From positions 1 to 64,000 of the forward strand of contig WHTU01000009.1 of NCBI GenBank assembly GCA_009377575.1: a stretch of 64,000 nt of DNA, given 5' to 3'. Origin of the DNA: Nitrososphaeraceae archaeon. GTDB lineage: Archaea > Thermoproteota > Nitrososphaeria > Nitrososphaerales > Nitrososphaeraceae. Under the pieces are notes generated by a model. That model was not told the origin of the DNA. It saw nothing but the letters and a program-made list of their open reading frames with translations, and made no database searches. Within the stretch, counting starts at the first letter, position 1, and every line of letters begins with the position of its first letter. The translations under genes and the position numbers were made by a program. Of the stretch, positions 55,230 through 64,000 are shown one piece after another.

Positions 55230-57452
55230 ATGCACAGCAAAGATACTCGAAGTTTAAATCTCGATTTAAAGATACTTGAGGCTTATAGTAGAGACGTGGG
55301 TAGAGGAGTCGCCCGTCTTGATTACGATTCTATGGATTCTCTCGGAGCTTCAACTGGAGATATTATAGAATTGAAAGGTGGTGAAAAAAGCAGAAGTGCC
55401 AGAAGGACTGTAGCTAAGTGCTTACCTTTGTATCCTTCCGATGAGGGTAAGGGGGTGATCAGAATTGATGGTCTAGTTAGGAATAATGCAGGTCTAGCCA
55501 TAGGTGACATTGTAATCGTAAAAAAGATCAAAGCCACACTAGCAGAAAGGGTTATTGTTGCACCGCTTGAAGCAGTATCTTCAATTGATGAAAGGTATCT
55601 TGCAGACTCCCTTGATAGCGTTTCCATGATAAAAGGAGATAACGTTATGGTCCCGTATTTTGGTGGAAGACTTACCTTTCAGGTTGTAGGCCTTGCGCCT
55701 GATGCCTGCGACGCAGTCATAATAGGCCAGAAGACACAGTTCACTATAGCAACTTCTGACGTGGCACTGGCAGGGACAACCGCGAAGGCTATTGCTTATG
55801 AAGATATCGGGGGATTAAAGGATGAAATACAAAGGGTAAGAGAAATGATAGAACTCCCTTTAAGACATCCTGAGATATTTGAAAAACTTGGTATAGAAGC
55901 ACCGAAAGGTGTGCTATTGCATGGACCACCAGGAACAGGCAAGACTCTATTGGCTAAGGCAGTAGCCAATGAAAGCAACTCGCATTTTATTAGTATATCA
56001 GGACCAGAAATCATGAGTAAATTCTATGGGGAATCCGAAGCGCGTTTACGGGAAATATTTAAAGAGGCGCGAGAAAAAGCCCCCTCCATTATATTCATAG
56101 ATGAAATAGACTCTATTGCACCAAAAAGAGAAGAGGTCATGGGAGAAGTAGAGCGAAGAGTAGTTTCTCAAATGCTTTCAGTCATGGATGGATTGGAGAG
56201 CCGCGGGAAAGTCATAGTTATAGCAGCAAGTAACAGACCAAACGCAATAGATCCTGCATTGCGTAGACCGGGAAGATTTGATAGAGAAATCGAGATCAAA
56301 GTTCCAAACAAACGCGGCAGACTAGAAGTACTCCAGGTTCATACAAGAAATATGCCCCTAAATGCTGACATAGACCAAGATAGGATCGCCGCTGTTACCC
56401 ATGGATTTGTGGGAGCAGATCTTGAGTACTTGTGCAAAGAAGCAGCTATGAAGTGTTTGAGAAGACTTTTACCTGAACTCAATCTGGGGGATGAAAAACT
56501 TGCACCGGAGGTGCTAAATAAACTGGTAGTTACTATGGCCGATTTCCAGAATGCAATTAGGGAGATTGCCCCTTCTGCTATGAGGGAAGTCTATCTAGAG
56601 TCACCTGACGTGAAATGGGATGATATTGGTGGATTAGACTTAGTAAAGCGAGAGTTACAGGAAGCCGTCGAATGGCCAATGCGCTTTCCGGAAATGTACA
56701 AGCAATTAGGACATAATGTGCCTAAGGGAATACTGTTACACGGCCCTTCAGGAACGGGTAAGACTATGCTTGCAAAGGCGGTAGCAACTGAGTCAGAAGC
56801 AAATTTTATCAGTGTTAAGGGCCCAGAGCTCTTATCAAAGTGGGTAGGAGAGTCTGAAAAAGGACTGAGGGAGATCTTTAGAAAGGCAAGACAGGCTTCA
56901 CCATGTGTTATATTCTTTGATGAAATTGATTCTATTACCTCTATCAGAGGAGGTGGGATTGAAGGTCTTGGAGGTCTATCTAGTTCAGATAAGATGATGT
57001 CGCAACTGCTCACAGAGATGGATGGTATACAGGAAATTCATGATATCGTTATATTGGCTGCCACTAATAGAATAGACATGATGGACACTGCATTATTGAG
57101 ACCCGGTCGCTTTGACAAGATCATTTACATACCAAATCCAGACAAGGTCACAAGAGAAAGAATTCTACAAATCCATGTTAAAGGAAAGCCAATCAGTAAC
57201 GATATTGATATAAATAGAATAGTAGAAGCGACAGAAGGATTCAGTGGAGCTGATGTATCGTCAGTTGTAAATACTGCCGTATCTTTAGTTTTGCATGATT
57301 ATATACAGAGGTATCCATCTGCTGAAGAAGCATTCAAACATGCCTCAGAAGCACTTGTGACCATCAGACATTTAGAAGATGCTGTAAAAAAAGTAAGAAG
57401 ACAAAGAGAAATGAAACCGGAAGAGAAAATGCATATATCACACTATGGATAA
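55230..57452 (+). CDS. Cdc48/VAT AAA+ ATPase
   Basis: This protein unfoldase is the archaeal p97/VAT, which feeds substrates to the proteasome. The 740-residue protein has a double-psi-barrel N domain (about 8-185: [40 protein letters not shown]). The D1 module has Walker A GPPGTGKT at 232-239 and [14 protein letters not shown]. The D2 module has Walker A GPSGTGKT at 505-512 and [15 protein letters not shown]. Arg-finger elements LRRPGRFD and LLRPGRFD are present. The C-terminus ends HYG, with Tyr in the penultimate position as in proteasome-docking HbYX tails, though His replaces the hydrophobic residue. Confidence 0.96.
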
Positions 57453-58112
57453 GGGAAATAAATATTTCTGAAAATGCATAGTCCTACACGACTATAATAT
57501 AACTATTGTACATAATTATATTATTGGTGATTCTTATTCCTCCGCTGAATTGATTATTAATAGTTGCAATCCACCAAAAAATGATATTGCATATTCAATT
57601 AGTGATAAATCTCGATCGAAAGGTTTGAAGTAGTGCGGTCTGCTTTATAATACCATTGTACAATACTTTCAATTATTTCTAGTAGTAAATACTCTCAGTT
57701 GTTTTCTTCTTTCTTTTATTTCTGCCACAATAATGTATATTCAAGCTAGAAATTCGATTTCGATACGAAAACCTATAGTAGATTCACCAAAAGCAGGAGA
57801 TGCGATTATTAGTCCAGCTATTGCAACTTCCAACCCGTTCATACGAATGCGAAATCCTCTAGCCCACGCTTTGCTTTCCTTGTCTCCAATACTATATGCA
57901 ATGCTGGAAATTCAGTCGAATGGTGATGCGACTGCCATTCCCAATATTAAGAATGGTGTAGTTCCTATTGGAAATGCTATTACTTTAGCTGCTGGCAATG
58001 ACTAATATTCCCAATCCAATGTAACTAGACGAAACCTGTTGTTTATGTGAACGAACAAACCCATAATAACTCTCAATAGCTTCTATTAATAAAAGAATTG
58101 AAGCTGTCAGTA
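57453..58112. other. Stretch after cdc48 with a possible decayed membrane-protein gene
   Basis: On the minus strand 57741-57998 an 86-codon frame contains an internal TGA (57912-57914) and reads like a two-segment membrane protein. The opposite strand is also open (57733-58005), so coding is uncertain. The rest is AT-rich. Confidence 0.35.
57741..57998 (-). pseudogene. Possible remnant of a small membrane-protein gene (internal TGA)
   Basis: The minus frame reads VIAFPIGTTPFLILGMAVASPFD, a TGA stop, then continues in the same frame with KAWARGFRIRMNGLEVAIAGLIIASPAFGE. Two hydrophobic segments are separated by a charged turn. A plausible single-gene product broken by one stop would explain this. 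Antisense chance is the alternative. Confidence 0.25.
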
Positions 58113-58259
58113 CTATCGAGACTTGGAAACAAATTCAGCGTATTTCTCTGGACCTAGGTATTTAGTTCGTTGCCTGCACCTTAGACATATGATACTAGTA
58201 CGTTTATCTGGATAGATACAGGACCAACCACAATATCTACATCTTTCCCCAATTCCCAT
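58113..58259 (-). CDS. Tiny zinc-ribbon protein, 48 residues
   Basis: The frame runs from ATG at 58259 to TAG at 58113. It has two Cys pairs, CRYC (7-10) and CLRC (25-28), with an extra Cys at 14, giving a compact zinc ribbon, then a basic tail (RQRTKYLGPEKYAEF). An AGGTG precedes the ATG by a few bases and a TATA-like TTATAATAT lies near 58288-58298. The pattern C-x2-C-x14-C-x2-C and these signals support a real gene. Nucleic-acid binding is likely; no family name. Confidence 0.6.
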   Translation of the reverse strand: MGIGERCRYCGWSCIYPDKRTSIICLRCRQRTKYLGPEKYAEFVSKSR

Positions 58260-58480
58260 GTTTATCACCTATAGACCCAATACCATATTATAACTACGAA
58301 GGTAAAAGAGTATACCCACTATCACAATAATGACAGAAACAATGAATAGGATAGTTCTATGGTTATTCGTCATGCGTCGTTTAACACTGGCGATGAGTAA
58401 TCCCTTCTATCCTACGCTTAAAATACTCTCCACAAGCCTAATCTACGCTCACTACTCTCCTACGCTTAAGATTGCTAGTG

Positions 58481-58657
58481 TTAGGCATCAATTTCGTGCT
58501 CCAGCCCGTAATAGTATTTTTCTTCCTCCTTCTTGATAGCTTTAACGGCAGCTGCGATACAAGATAAACAGACGTTAATATTCGATCCTAAATGATTCTC
58601 TAACCTGTTCTCTATAGTGAGAGGTTCACCACATGAGCGGCACAGACGTCTAGACAT
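58481..58657 (-). CDS. Tiny zinc-finger protein, 58 residues
   Basis: The frame runs from ATG at 58657 to TAA at 58481. The Cys pairs CRSC (6-9) and CLSC (30-33) are separated by 20 residues. A Lys/Glu-rich helix follows (AVKAIKKEEEKYYYGLEHE). A TATA-like GGTTTAAAACC at 58685-58695 lies 28-38 bases upstream, so the transcript is probably leaderless. It probably binds zinc; function unknown. It is separate from the 58113-58259 gene by about 220 bases but in the same orientation. Confidence 0.6.
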   Translation of the reverse strand: MSRRLCRSCGEPLTIENRLENHLGSNINVCLSCIAAAVKAIKKEEEKYYYGLEHEIDA

Positions 58658-58684
58658 GCCCTCGTCCCTTTACACTCATTCGAG

Positions 58685-58695
58685 GGTTTTAAACC
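58685..58695 (-). promoter_or_regulatory. TATA-like box of the 58-residue zinc-finger gene
   Basis: GGTTTAAAACC on the minus strand lies 28-38 bases before the ATG at 58657. Confidence 0.45.
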
Positions 58696-58951
58696 TCATC
58701 ATTTCCATTCTCATCAAAAACGTTCTGATAGTTATTGTTGATGTATCTCCCGTCTTACAGTTTCTCACTTGTATCTGAGCTTACGATTATGTAATCTGTT
58801 CCGTCGTCTTAAGAGATTAGCTTTTAGTAGCCTGGATCTTAACTAAACGAGGCTTCTTCTTCAGGCATAAATCTCAGCACGTTATAGACCGAAGATTCCT
58901 TTAGTGTCATTTGTAATTATAACACGAATACTGCATATCCTATCTTATGCC

Positions 58952-60541
58952 TCAAGACTTCGTTCCGAATTCCTCTTCGTACCAATGTGGAGTAAATTCT
59001 TCATATCTAGATGTTCTCTCGGGCTCTTCAACGATCTTCTCGTTCACGGTATGTTGAAAATCTATTACGTCTTTCTTCCAATTATCGAACCATTTACTTA
59101 TTTCCCGATCCTCTTTTAGGATCTGTGTAAATTGTTTCGCTGGGATCGAGGCCCATCTGGTCGTAGGCAATTCCGATTCTTCCAAATACATACTAAATCG
59201 ATCTAAATTTGCATAGTATTTATCCCTTGCAATCAGATTTAGATAATACACAAGGCTTATTTCTTCTGGCCTCATGTTTATCGGCTCAGAAATATCCTTT
59301 AATTTTTGATATAGTGCAAAAAATTTTGTCATGTCATTTTTTTCACGTTTGTTTACTTGTTTGTATCGAGTAATACCCTCTAGCTTATTAACTTCATATC
59401 TTTCTAGTGAATTTATTCCAGTGTCGAAGATTAGTCGCAGATTACTAAAATTATATTGTATAATCGATCGTGCGCTTTGATAAAGTTCCTTATAACCATG
59501 CAGGATTACTGATTTACTAGAACGACTGATACGAAAATCTTTACTGAGTATCACGTCAAAATTGAACATTGAATCATTCCCTAGATTATCCTTTAGTAAA
59601 GACCACTTTCCAAAGATTAAGGGAACGACGCCGGAATAGTTTGAGGCTATTTTATCATAATAATACATTATATGCTTAGAATTTTCGAAATTTCGACGCA
59701 GCAAGATAGTTAGAAATAATAATATTCCAAATAGTGATAATTGACATGTTTTCTTTCCCGAATCATTCTGAGTATTTATGATTATGCTACGTTGCAAGAA
59801 ACGTCTTTGCTCTAAATACTTTTTTAAATAAGAGCCAACCGACATTCCATGTTTTTTTGCTTGATTCCGCATATACTTCCAAGAATCAGCAGGACTGTGA
59901 TGATCCTGTATTGGTCCCGTAGAGAAATCCAGAAGTATTTCATCCAGATCAGAATTTGACACTCCCATTAACTTGGAACTAATCTCTTCTTTTGTAATGT
60001 TTGGATAGCTAACCAGGATTTCCAGAATTCTTGTAATAAGGCTAGACTCATTAATTTTTTGTGCAGAGAGCCATTTTGCATAAAAGTCATTCAATTCGTC
60101 TAGAAAAAGACCTGCTTCTCTTCCTGATGCATACTTCAAATATTTCGATATAAAAAGTTCATAGAGATCGTTAACGGTCTGTAAGTCAATTGGATCAGAT
60201 CTGTAATGACACACTCTAATTATGTATGACCAAAAATTCTCAGGATTAGTCTCATCAGATACAATAGCAGCAAGACCGTTGTATGTAATATTATAAAATT
60301 TCTCTGGTTTACCACTTCTGCTCGTGTCCACACATTTTGGTTCTATCAATTTCTTCTTAAGCAAATTGTCAAATGCTTCTGAGATTTCGCCATAGTGATG
60401 TTCCTTCAGGTATTCATTCTTTGCCTTACTTTTAGATAGAGATTCATGATTAGTCAATTCTTTGAGTATTTTGAGTTGTAAATCTGGCTTCTTCTTTTTT
60501 TCGTTATAGAATTTGTGAGTAAACAAATATCGTGATATCAC
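58952..60541 (-). CDS. Large winged-helix protein of unknown function
   Basis: From the GTG at 60541 the protein has 529 residues. The first ~90 contain a winged helix (LQLKILKELTNHESLSKSKAKNEYLKEHHYGEISEAFDNLLKKKLIEPK...SGKPEKFYNITYNGLAAI). The remainder is helical with no known domain. One hydrophobic stretch near 280-300 (CQLSLFGILLFLTILL) could be a membrane or buried helix. The open frame extends to 60700, but that part is Phe/Tyr/Cys-rich and precedes the shared TATA box, so 60541 is preferred. It diverges from the Cas4-like nuclease. Accessory; function unknown. Confidence 0.6.
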   Translation of the reverse strand: MISRYLFTHKFYNEKKKKPDLQLKILKELTNHESLSKSKAKNEYLKEHHYGEISEAFDNLLKKKLIEPKCVDTSRSGKPEKFYNITYNGLAAIVSDETNPENFWSYIIRVCHYRSDPIDLQTVNDLYELFISKYLKYASGREAGLFLDELNDFYAKWLSAQKINESSLITRILEILVSYPNITKEEISSKLMGVSNSDLDEILLDFSTGPIQDHHSPADSWKYMRNQAKKHGMSVGSYLKKYLEQRRFLQRSIIINTQNDSGKKTCQLSLFGILLFLTILLRRNFENSKHIMYYYDKIASNYSGVVPLIFGKWSLLKDNLGNDSMFNFDVILSKDFRISRSSKSVILHGYKELYQSARSIIQYNFSNLRLIFDTGINSLERYEVNKLEGITRYKQVNKREKNDMTKFFALYQKLKDISEPINMRPEEISLVYYLNLIARDKYYANLDRFSMYLEESELPTTRWASIPAKQFTQILKEDREISKWFDNWKKDVIDFQHTVNEKIVEEPERTSRYEEFTPHWYEEEFGTKS

Positions 60542-60560
60542 ACAAGTTACTTCAATTACC

Positions 60561-60570
60561 CTATATATAT
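60561..60570. promoter_or_regulatory. Symmetric TATA box shared by two divergent genes
   Basis: CTATATATAT reads as a TATA box in both directions. It is 20-29 bases before the ATG at 60590 on the plus strand and 20-29 bases before the GTG at 60541 on the minus strand, so one element could drive both genes. Confidence 0.5.
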
Positions 60571-60589
60571 GACTTACCATATGATAATT

Positions 60590-61453
60590 ATGACACAAAA
60601 AGTCAAAAAAATAGAAGTAATAAGCAAAAATGAATGCAAGATAGGACCTACAATAGCTACAGCCAAAAGCATTGAATCGATAGATAATTCGACAGGGCAA
60701 AGAAAAGATGTCAAGGAATCAGAGGGTGCAGATCCCCAAACCGAGGTAGATGAAGTGAAAGGGACCGAGGAAAAAACACATGCATTAGACCTTGGTGAAT
60801 ACTACATAGATCGTGCCATAGATACAATGGAGGAATGGCATTCAAAACCTAGAGATTTTGGCCACGTCTCAGATGTTGTTATGTGTCACAGGCAAAGATT
60901 ATACCGTGAAATAGACCGCCGACCACTCGGTTCCAAGAATGTAAGCATCTATTCATCAGGAAAAGCAATTCATGAAGCGGTACAATTGCTATTTCGTAGT
61001 GATAAGAGGACATTTGAAATAGAAAAATACGTGGAGTTCAAGGACATTTTAGGCTCGGTGGACATTTATGACAGGAAACGTAACATTCCTATCGAATTCA
61101 AGACTAGTCGAGCGTCTGATATAAAAGAACCCAAGAGCTTTCATGTGGACCAGCTAAAATACTATATGTCCATGTTAGGTGCCGAACAAGGATACATCAT
61201 ATATCAATTGCTAATGCATTTCGAAGACACACCATTCAAAACCTTCAGAATATTGATGAATGCGCAAGAAAGGAAGGACCAGCGTGATAAGTTAGTAAAG
61301 GAAGTAAATTCTCTAAAGAGAGCGATAGAAGCAAGAGACCCTTCTCTTGCAAGACCAGTAAACCATGATCCTTCGCTGAATTGGCTATGCAAATCGTGTG
61401 AGTATTTGGCGGATTGTAAAAAGATACAGCAGACCGCTGCGGTGGCGGCCTGA
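60590..61453 (+). CDS. Cas4-like iron-sulphur PD-(D/E)xK nuclease
   Basis: The protein has 287 residues from the ATG at 60590; the frame also has an ATG at 60569 inside the TATA box. A charged N-terminal ~70 residues lead into a RecB/Cas4-type nuclease. The first cluster Cys is C99 (VVMCHRQRLYRE), then GKAIHEAVQLL with H128, D158 in GSVDIYD and E169/K171 in IEFKTS. Motif IV is VDQLKYY (Q188, Y191), and the remaining cluster Cys are C267, C270 and C276 (WLCKSCEYLADC). This is the complete Cas4/Dna2-like active site with a 4Fe-4S cluster. No cas genes or CRISPR array are in the window, so a repair, viral or mobile-element role is as likely as spacer acquisition. Confidence 0.82.
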   Translation: MTQKVKKIEVISKNECKIGPTIATAKSIESIDNSTGQRKDVKESEGADPQTEVDEVKGTEEKTHALDLGEYYIDRAIDTMEEWHSKPRDFGHVSDVVMCHRQRLYREIDRRPLGSKNVSIYSSGKAIHEAVQLLFRSDKRTFEIEKYVEFKDILGSVDIYDRKRNIPIEFKTSRASDIKEPKSFHVDQLKYYMSMLGAEQGYIIYQLLMHFEDTPFKTFRILMNAQERKDQRDKLVKEVNSLKRAIEARDPSLARPVNHDPSLNWLCKSCEYLADCKKIQQTAAVAA

Positions 61454-61477
61454 TTTTGAATGGAGGTAAATATAGCA

Positions 61478-61690
61478 ATGGCATCCGGTGAAAATAAATG
61501 CAAGTACTGCGGCTCTAAAGAGTCATCTCTCGCTGTCAATGAGGTAGGAAATACGTACCAAAGATGGACTCGAAATCATTACGAAGAAGATAGTTGGATA
61601 TGCGGAATATGTTACAGAAACCTTCTGTATCTGAAAGCCCGTCCTCTAACTTATTTTCGTAGAAGGAAGCTTGAAAAGGAGCGGAAATAA
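61478..61690 (+). CDS. Single CxxC-x30-CxxC zinc-finger protein
   Basis: The protein has 70 residues from the ATG at 61478, preceded by GGAGGT (61462-61467), which decides against the ATG at 61460. It is essentially one finger: C8, C11, C42, C45 with 30 residues between the pairs. Trp sits 19 and 29 residues after the second Cys, and YRNLLYLKARP follows the last Cys. A basic tail ends the protein (RRRKLEKERK). The finger closely matches the first finger of the downstream composite nuclease (61692-62666). They lie one base apart, so they are in one operon and look like a duplicated module. Confidence 0.7.
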   Translation: MASGENKCKYCGSKESSLAVNEVGNTYQRWTRNHYEEDSWICGICYRNLLYLKARPLTYFRRRKLEKERK

Positions 61691-61691
61691 A

Positions 61692-62666
61692 ATGTCGAAT
61701 AGTCTATCAGGCAATACTATTGAACGAAAATGCGAGTACTGCGGCAATGACAGGACATATATGGCTGTTACTAAGGGAGGAACATCTTATCCAAAATGGA
61801 ATAGTAATCCTTTCAAAGAAGAGACGTGGATATGCGGAAAGTGTTACAGAAACCTACTGTATCACAAGGCTTTTCCTCCTATTCAAGTTCGTAGAAGTAT
61901 TCGGATAAACAGAATTGCAAAGCGAGTTTGTCATAAATGTGGCGGCAAGACAACAACTCAAAAAAGCAAGACCTCACCTAATGATTATCATATATGGCAT
62001 AGACATCCCGAAGTATCGAGCAAATGGCTGTGCGGTAGGTGTTATGCAAATTGGCTCTTTGAGCCTAGGCGAAGATTCAAGACTAAAGAAGAACGTTACC
62101 AATACATCAGCAAGTTATTTAGTGGCACAGGAAATCCCCAGTACGGAAATCATACATTAAATGTGGGTAGGGTTTACACTGAAGAGCGAAACAAAAAGGT
62201 TTCTGAAGCAGTCAAGCAGTGGGCCAAATTACACCCTGAGCATTACTATAGAATAGGCATTCTCGGCGCTATAAAGGCGAGAAAATTAGGGTTATCCGGT
62301 CTACCTACTGGTCTGGAGATCCGAATGGAGAAAGCGCTTAAGGAACATAAGATACAGTACATCCCTCAATATCGATATGGCATAGGCATAATGGATTTCT
62401 ATCTCCCTGAAGGAAACATAGCGTTATTTGTTGACGGAGGAGTATGGCACGCTGATCCCAGACTATTCGATGCCACAGATATTCTATTTTTCAAATTCAA
62501 GACTTCAAGAAATGAACCGATAACCGCCGAAGAGGTTTGGAAGAAGGATAGAATTCATACGAATTATCTAAAGTCGAAAGGGTATACCGTAGTTCGTTTC
62601 TGGGAGAAGGAGATAAAAAGTGAAATTGATAGATGTATAAAGATACTTCTTTATCAAAAGACATGA
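61692..62666 (+). CDS. Two-finger / NUMOD3-like / Vsr-type nuclease composite protein
   Basis: The protein has 324 residues from the ATG at 61692, with AAGGAGCGG at 61675-61683 as ribosome binding site. Finger 1 is C14, C17, C48, C51 and finger 2 is C80, C83, C114, C117, both with exactly 30 residues between pairs and Trp at the same two places. Residues about 144-175 (SGTGNPQYGNHTLNVGRVY / TEERNKKVSEAVKQ) resemble NUMOD3, a DNA-binding motif of homing endonucleases. Residues about 205-310 form a Vsr/EDxHD-like nuclease: E209 (GLEIRMEKAL), D235 (IMDFYL), H253 (FVDGGVWHADP), KKDRIHTNYLKSKGYTVVRFWEKEI. It is probably a free-standing homing or mobile-element endonuclease; the function is inferred. 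Confidence 0.72.
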   Translation: MSNSLSGNTIERKCEYCGNDRTYMAVTKGGTSYPKWNSNPFKEETWICGKCYRNLLYHKAFPPIQVRRSIRINRIAKRVCHKCGGKTTTQKSKTSPNDYHIWHRHPEVSSKWLCGRCYANWLFEPRRRFKTKEERYQYISKLFSGTGNPQYGNHTLNVGRVYTEERNKKVSEAVKQWAKLHPEHYYRIGILGAIKARKLGLSGLPTGLEIRMEKALKEHKIQYIPQYRYGIGIMDFYLPEGNIALFVDGGVWHADPRLFDATDILFFKFKTSRNEPITAEEVWKKDRIHTNYLKSKGYTVVRFWEKEIKSEIDRCIKILLYQKT

Positions 62667-62810
62667 GGGTATACGCTACATTAGAATATTTATAGATATT
62701 ATCGTTGATTCGTCATGTGAATAACGATTATCGGCAATGAAAGTAGAGGATTCGTGATAGACAGTACAACCTGGAGTGTGTCCTTCCCGGAGCATATACC
62801 CACAGCACAA

Positions 62811-63233
62811 CTAACTAAACATATCATCATGCAACCCTTTTGCGCGGGATGAAATATATTCTTCTGTTGAATCTATCAAGGTATACAATTCCGGCAAAAT
62901 AGATTCTCTATTTTCCTTACTAGCATAGATTAGATCGTTTATGAAATAGCGGGTGTACTGTTCGAATCTATGATCCTCTTTGACTTCTCTCATGCATTTT
63001 TTCCACGAATTCCAATATATCTGGAATCTTTCATCAGGATTAGCAAGATATTCTAGAATTTGTTTTGAGATAGATTTATGATGCTCTGAACTTTCGTCAG
63101 TAGAAGCCAATATTTCCTCTAGTTTACTCTTGTATTGCTGGCGTGCTTTTCTAGGCACATCCTCTGACCCTGGATCGTCTTTAGATGTGATTAAGATCCT
63201 GCTAAGTACGGATAGGGCTCCGGCTAGGAACAA
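62811..63233 (-). CDS. Downstream part of a split gene (C-terminal half)
   Basis: The 140-residue helical segment (AGALSVLSRILITSKDD...FQIYWNSWKKCMREVKED...RYFINDLIYASKENRESILP) opens at a TTG at 63233 without any ribosome binding site. The frame is the same as that of the upstream gene, and the 19 codons between that gene's TAG and this TTG are all sense (KIPEVWEKLDDEILSDHYS). It therefore looks like the C-terminal half of one protein interrupted by a stop rather than an independent gene. No domain recognised. Confidence 0.45.
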   Translation of the reverse strand: MFLAGALSVLSRILITSKDDPGSEDVPRKARQQYKSKLEEILASTDESSEHHKSISKQILEYLANPDERFQIYWNSWKKCMREVKEDHRFEQYTRYFINDLIYASKENRESILPELYTLIDSTEEYISSRAKGLHDDMFS

Positions 63234-63290
63234 ACTGTAGTGATCGCTTAGTATTTCATCGTCCAGCTTCTCCCATACTTCGGGGATTTT

Positions 63291-63902
63291 CTAAATCCGT
63301 TTTGTTATTGCTTGTTTCTCCAGGTCGCGCCACGCTGTAAGTTGAATTTTTTCAGTTGATGTAGAGTTAATTCTGTTCAGATACAACTTTAATTTTTCAA
63401 GAGATGTGTCTTCTAGATGATCACTCGTTTCGGTTGGCAAAACTGAAACGTTAATAGTATTACTAATAGTATTCTTGTCTTTGAAATGTTTCAACGATTT
63501 TGTGACTATATCCTTTACGTGATTCTCTATATGGCCAGGATCTTCTAAAATCTTGTTTCCATCAAGCATCTCAGGTACTACCGTTCCTTTTTTCGATTCG
63601 CTAATCCGTGTCTTTTGAAACTCTCTGACAAACTTACTGTTCTGTACAACTGTTGATTGAGCTACTACAATCTTAATATGCGCATCCGATCTTATTAAAA
63701 GAAGCATATCACGGAAAAAGTTTGCAAGTGAATCAGTCCAGATAATCTCAATCATCAACTCAATTCCATCTGAATTAATTGAAAAAATGTCCAATTCTTG
63801 TCCCGATGAAGGATATTCAGTTATAGTGACGCCAAACCAGTCACTTAGCTTCTTTGCCATTAATATTTTGATTGAGTTATGCTTGCTGGTTTCACCTATC
63901 AA
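63291..63902 (-). CDS. Nuclease-like N-terminal half of a split gene
   Basis: The protein has 203 residues to a TAG at 63291-63293. Residues about 20-100 look like a PD-(D/E)xK-type fold: KKLSDWFGVTITEYPSSGQELDIFSINSDGIELMIEIIW, then LIRSDAHIKIVVAQSTVVQ. The acidic residues D38 and E52 are in the expected strands, but the usual Lys is not clear. The rest is Lys/Glu/Ser-rich helix. Reading through the TAG would extend it to 62811 for a total of about 363 residues. Start ATG at 63902. Confidence 0.55.
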   Translation of the reverse strand: MIGETSKHNSIKILMAKKLSDWFGVTITEYPSSGQELDIFSINSDGIELMIEIIWTDSLANFFRDMLLLIRSDAHIKIVVAQSTVVQNSKFVREFQKTRISESKKGTVVPEMLDGNKILEDPGHIENHVKDIVTKSLKHFKDKNTISNTINVSVLPTETSDHLEDTSLEKLKLYLNRINSTSTEKIQLTAWRDLEKQAITKRI

Positions 63903-64000
63903 TTAATTTTAGTCTCCCTGATTAACAGAAGTAGACGGCATTCAATTATATTAACCAAAAACGAATTAAAGATATTATCATACTTTAATAAGGTAGCCCT

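Follow-up and report, generated by a model that had tools for sequence, protein, structure and literature searches.

The usual route of homing genes is repair-based copying after cleavage; free-standing homing genes are common, a location inside an intron or intein is not required, and the nucleases are thought to acquire new targets through domain exchange. Among the closest described systems, EDxHD homing nucleases built with modular parts for DNA binding are already known, as is the combination of EDxHD and NUMOD3 as such in phages (PMC3943268), and nucleases as well as Cas4 homologs are on record from integrated elements of these archaea (PMC6563490). I-Bth0305I (PDB 3r3p) shares with the protein considered here, P0002, a catalytic fold, the E-D-H-D residues and a multi-domain layout with separate DNA-binding parts (PMC3943268), whereas its PDB name is that of a mobile intron protein and P0002 is free-standing, archaeal and equipped with two CxxC-x30-CxxC fingers. 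Phage NUMOD3-DUF559/Vsr-like proteins (for example A0A6J5L561) and the NUMOD3-EDxHD proteins of the same archaeal order (L017, L018 and L026) resemble P0002 in joining a NUMOD3-type linker to an EDxHD domain, but they have long NUMOD3 arrays and lack fingers of the P0002 type; at one of these loci (L018:1486-3391, genome G375) two NUMOD3-array EDxHD nuclease genes stand in tandem. The Vsr mismatch endonuclease has a fold like that of P0002, yet forms a separate clade, has another motif and carries no fingers. Odn (Gp88) of phage ICP1 is, like P0002, a homing-type nuclease built by exchange of a DNA-binding domain (PMC8263062), but combines a GIY-YIG-type catalytic domain with a RepA-type binding domain. 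Set beside these systems, P0002 is, by its sequence, a new finger-bearing variant among the known EDxHD homing-type nucleases.

The window analysed is a stretch of 64,000 nucleotides from a soil-dwelling Nitrososphaeraceae archaeon, on the contig that we call C380, and the cassette of interest consists of the following features.

60569-61453, plus strand: Cas4-like PD-(D/E)XK nuclease gene, assigned from TIGR00372, phrog_1706 and an alignment of relatives
61462-61467, plus strand: Shine-Dalgarno-like GGAGGT before the P0001 start codon, from the sequence and the junction alignment
61478-61690, plus strand: P0001, a stand-alone zinc finger protein of 70 residues, its finger at 61499-61612
61692-62666, plus strand: P0002, a composite nuclease of 324 residues with fingers, NUMOD3-like linker and EDxHD domain
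61731-61844, plus strand: finger 1 of P0002, residues 14-51
61929-62042, plus strand: finger 2 of P0002, residues 80-117
about 62120-62240, plus strand: NUMOD3-like linker of P0002
about 62304-62663, plus strand: EDxHD domain of P0002

The P0001 and P0002 frames lie on the same strand with a gap of one base, and the GGAGGT before P0001 is mostly retained in the other copies of the junction alignment. Right behind the cassette, two minus-strand frames of 140 and 203 residues (62811-63902) have no confident family match. A pattern count finds exactly three CxxC-x30-CxxC units, at P0001 residues 8-45 and at the two positions in P0002, just as the preliminary description of this DNA had it (one finger in the small protein, two in the composite, 30 residues between the cysteine pairs). 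Its two common tryptophans and CGxCYxN follower were equally borne out by alignment: both cysteine pairs, Y27, W30, W40, C42, G43, C45, Y46 and N48 (P0001 numbering) are common to all three fingers. With P0001 as query, both fingers of the composite are retrieved from the same genome (E 2.6e-17 for finger 1, 2.3e-5 for finger 2), and since P0001 and finger 1 are about half identical, the likeness stems from duplication rather than chance. The predicted model of P0001 (mean pLDDT 76, moderate confidence) has strands and then a helix past the second CxxC, the order seen in treble-clef fingers; inside the AlphaFold model of P0002 the fingers are of low confidence. Searches of the finger against Pfam, NCBIfam, PHROGs and PDB chains gave sub-threshold matches only and no significant family, and the predicted finger structure had no significant match in the PDB, where a GATA finger, a kinship considered from the pattern, appeared only at E 7.2. 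That the finger is new, as far as these four libraries go, is a supported reading of its sequence.

The catalytic part of P0002 is of the EDxHD kind. E209, D235 and H253 stand where the preliminary description had placed them, D286 completes the set of EDxHD positions, and across 56 family members D235 and H253 are invariant and D286 nearly so. The protein matches Pfam DUF559 at E 1.4e-5, over the cut-off, and a family profile built from eleven relatives finds PDB 3r3p as its best solved match (7.7e-11), followed by Vsr (6.5e-8). A Vsr-like fold, on which the preliminary description had let its reading stand or fall, was indeed recovered: in the AlphaFold domain model, made with 56 sequences, most residues between 205 and 324 have a pLDDT above 90, and in a fold search with it the catalytic domain of I-Bth0305I heads the list (3r3p, target TM-score 0.77), followed by Vsr. 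The proposed NUMOD3-like segment fared less evenly, since the match to PF07460 in P0002 stays below the gathering cut-off (E 0.0087, 16.4 against 20.4 bits), whereas the homologous stretch in a sister protein, from genome G140, runs into a strong NUMOD3 array (8e-30, 102.9 bits). By sequence, fingers and linker are predicted to bind DNA as parts that are separate from the catalytic domain but joined to it. The best viral match of P0002 is a phage protein named for NUMOD3, and viruses encode many relatives of the catalytic domain, one of which lies in a phage DNA polymerase gene between its split-intein-like halves.

L011:6872-9862, in IMGVR_UViG_3300017991_001303: phage DNA polymerase III alpha with an EDxHD frame between intein-like halves

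This phage nuclease belongs to the same catalytic family as P0002 but, unlike it, sits inside a split phage gene and has no fingers; its arrangement is comparable to the fractured-gene homing family reportedly described by Dassa et al. in 2009.

Of particular interest is where else the finger occurs, for which we searched 400 genomes of the order with a profile of ten fingers and 70 genomes of the family with one of thirteen. The sister protein in G140 has two fingers, then five NUMOD3 matches and then a LAGLIDADG domain; its finger-finger N-terminus is 52% identical to that of P0002 over 215 residues (E 2e-68), and its gene sits behind the same Cas4-like gene as the P0002 cassette. Pfam gives no LAGLIDADG match in this protein, the domain being reached through phrog_4645 and through a LAGLIDADG_3 protein encoded on contig C353 of our own genome, to which it is 31% identical (4e-24). 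The C353 protein (346 residues) itself carries two shorter fingers before its LAGLIDADG_3 domain, a weaker but consistent match (finger E 9e-5, LAGLIDADG_3 4.2e-5, profile comparison 1.5e-5). In addition, HNH_3 nucleases in G197 and G137 have one finger each at the C-terminus, and a free-standing finger is found with confidence in G143 and more weakly in G195 (2.3e-4). The first profile scores G197, G137 and G143 at 2e-7, 2.6e-4 and 4.5e-7; because these three entered the second profile, their scores with it are not independent. The finger profiles also pick up decayed copies in G205 and G122, and in G205 an HNH nuclease frame (L061:2294-2737) directly follows a frameshifted copy of the finger pair. 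Weak matches in other families of the order mostly cover half the motif and were not counted, and a draw of 398 genomes from the phylum yielded no additional genome with the finger at 1e-5. Searches of IMG/VR found no viral finger and no kin of the finger-bearing HNH or finger-bearing LAGLIDADG proteins; phages have many HNH kin, and among the matches listed the alignments stop short of the finger part. Confident and weaker matches together thus fall on EDxHD, LAGLIDADG and HNH proteins, so that one reading part has been joined to three kinds of cutter. The preliminary description had spoken of a new module, and while its newness holds in the libraries searched, the module is not confined to P0002. 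On the sequence comparison, fingers have been exchanged between cutting domains at one locus, and they look like a portable DNA-reading part.

The slot directly behind the Cas4-like gene is itself variable, and the junction alignment distinguishes three states. It is empty in G140, where 192 bp including P0001 are missing; it holds P0001 in C380 and in C374, another contig of the same genome; and it holds another small zinc protein in C358 (L008:8824-9024) and G205 (L061:3116-3315). The preliminary description had taken P0001 for the nuclease's own small finger partner; with one sister locus that manages without P0001 and another that has a different zinc protein in its place, such a partnership is hypothetical, and the interpretation as a whole is partly supported. 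Between C380 and C374 the slot lies within a tract of unusual similarity.

61435-61736, no strand assigned: tract recently copied, C380 against C374, about 300 bp

Here 15 of 299 bases differ (5%) as against 23% outside, no window of the tract's length had fewer than 34 differences in 5000 permutations, and dS between the two contigs is 0.99 for the Cas4-like gene and 1.14 for P0002 but 0.05 for P0001. Because the tract has diverged so little, and P0001 is absent from the sister locus, P0001 and about 50 bp to each side of it were copied recently. The copied tract would be the trace expected from repair of a break near the slot; plain gene conversion would look identical, and the tract is compatible with any ectopic gene conversion, whether or not nuclease-driven repair was behind it.

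Neither the upstream Cas4-like gene nor the roughly 17-kb, integrase-bearing mobile-element setting had figured in the preliminary description.

57479-64000, no strand assigned: left part of the inserted element, which as a whole spans about 57.5 to 74-75.5 kb of C380
C380:72141-73292: phage-type integrase (E 4.9e-12), downstream on the cassette's contig

Several genes of no assigned family also lie downstream of the cassette on C380. In G205 the two chromosomal flanks are about 750 bp apart, with cdc48 (which ends at 57452) on the left, and the sequence of the right flank lies 18 kb further on in our own genome, although on the right the match extends over just 197 bases, at 69.5%; from this spacing it follows that about 17 kb including the cassette were inserted in our own genome. 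G140, too, lacks the insertion, with a rearrangement. The stretch 57596-58100 has further copies at about 72% identity in the genus (C353, G205 and G176), which makes it a repeated element at the left end of the insertion. By eye, a protein beside the finger-LAGLIDADG gene of C353 (L182:2128-3573) resembles one beside the C374 cassette (L007:2504-3835), and these look-alikes are perhaps a marker of the carrier element.

The cassette recurs in various stages of completeness. C374 holds the one other intact copy, with the Cas4-like gene, P0001 and P0002 in about 1.87 kb at 80% identity; this block ends on the right near the end of the nuclease and on the left inside the Cas4-like frame. Truncated copies are found on contigs C358 and C22 and in genomes G176, G205 and G122. 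On C358 the Cas4-like gene survives together with another small zinc protein and an EDxHD domain that has been cut short, and in C22 and the sister genome G176 no more than a fragment is left. The Cas4-like gene and truncated domain of C358 have a STAND-type ATPase on one side and, on the other, an HNH protein that matches defence-effector models (L008:4848-12703). A single-protein scan of genome contigs found one locus, in Nitrososphaerales archaeon TH526. Such scatter and decay of cassette copies is, to judge from the sequences, the pattern expected of homing genes. An intron or intein host for P0002 was considered and rejected: an Rfam search of 57-64 kb gave no match, no group I intron or intein lies around P0002, and the gene is free-standing. 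The homing-type endonuclease put forward in the preliminary description stands as the best reading, with viral kin that include the split-intein-like polymerase case, although we found no intron or intein and, among the genomes compared, no allele lacking exactly the nuclease gene.

We consider it probable (at roughly 0.72) that P0002 is a free-standing homing-type EDxHD endonuclease residing on an integrated element, with the finger as its portable targeting module and P0001 as a recently copied duplicate of that finger. The two treble-clef-like fingers and the NUMOD3-like linker would bind DNA, the metal-dependent EDxHD domain would cut it, and relatives that have been cut would most likely acquire the adjoining DNA when the break is repaired. 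P0002 would travel with the Cas4-like gene on a mobile element integrated in archaea of the Nitrososphaerales type, its finger serving equally as targeting module when joined to LAGLIDADG and HNH nucleases; P0001 would have been copied into or between slots behind Cas4-like genes, and the cassette would spread and decay along with integrated elements. A bolder extension, which we regard as doubtful, is that the finger is a new reading module for any catalytic domain and that the slot behind the Cas4-like gene is the target, P0001 shielding the carrier's own copy of it, P0002 cutting copies without P0001 and the Cas4-like exonuclease preparing the ends.

It is unlikely that the nuclease is a weapon between mobile elements, whose fingers would recognise a site shared with rivals and which would destroy them, by analogy with Odn of phage ICP1 and its target PLE; P0001 might then be the element's DNA-binding protein or a shield for its own site. 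The element setting and the several related cassettes within one genome would suit such a role, and the same finger occurs both stand-alone and fused to a nuclease, in the way that one DNA-binding domain is common to Odn and RepA (PMC8263062), but P0001 is absent from the LAGLIDADG version in G140 and P0002 has no convincing match in a defence library.

The Cas4-like gene raises a different idea, that it forms one machine with P0001 and P0002, in which P0002 would cut, the Cas4-like exonuclease would resect and recombination would copy the cassette. The Cas4-like protein matches phrog_1706 at 1.2e-27 and TIGR00372 at 2.2e-11 (43.9 bits, below the 65-bit cut-off), and C106, C274, C277 and C283, of the Fe-S kind, are invariant in an alignment of 7 relatives together with the D165/E176/K178 motif; its start is uncertain because conservation is lacking upstream of about 60778. 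The gene occurs in only 4 of the 70 genomes of the family, no cas genes were found among its scanned neighbours and no kin in viral contigs. Wherever the locus is intact it stands directly upstream, in the same gene order and with short gaps at C380, C374 and (without P0001) G140, and both nucleases are under strong purifying selection (dN/dS 0.15 for the Cas4-like gene, 0.14 for P0002 and its paralog), so this constant neighbour could mean joint function rather than hitch-hiking. Nuclease fragments do, however, occur without the Cas4-like gene, and a Cas4-like relative in G234 (L059) stands without the nuclease, which leaves the one-machine idea quite improbable. Like the one on C358, another Cas4-like gene, in G234 (L058), has an ATPase neighbour, here a large ATPase-like protein.

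That P0002 is by now inactive, a dead remnant, is very improbable, since, for all the truncated and frameshifted copies in the genus, this one is full length, retains every catalytic and zinc residue and shows the low dN/dS just given. A Vsr mismatch-repair endonuclease, which the Vsr-like fold and a TIGR00632 match might suggest, can be dismissed: Vsr models match P0002 below their cut-offs (TIGR00632 at E 3.3e-6, 27.4 against the curated 97.85 bits), P0002 lacks the Vsr start motif, Vsr has no such fingers, and in a tree of 86 domains, whose deeper forks are poorly resolved, the four copies from our own genome form one clade (100/100) outside a well-supported 21-row Vsr clade (100/99) with members in the same archaeal order.

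Within the libraries searched, then, three things are new: the finger itself, the way in which it has changed cutters at one locus, and a stand-alone copy that has moved recently. What makes the finger-bearing endonuclease of particular interest is that domain exchange is visible at one locus, where the same fingers and the same upstream gene accompany an EDxHD cutter here and a LAGLIDADG cutter in the sister genome. This pair furnishes a natural test of whether the choice of target lies with a small finger, in elements that are little studied in archaea, and the compact finger may be explored as a DNA-binding part.
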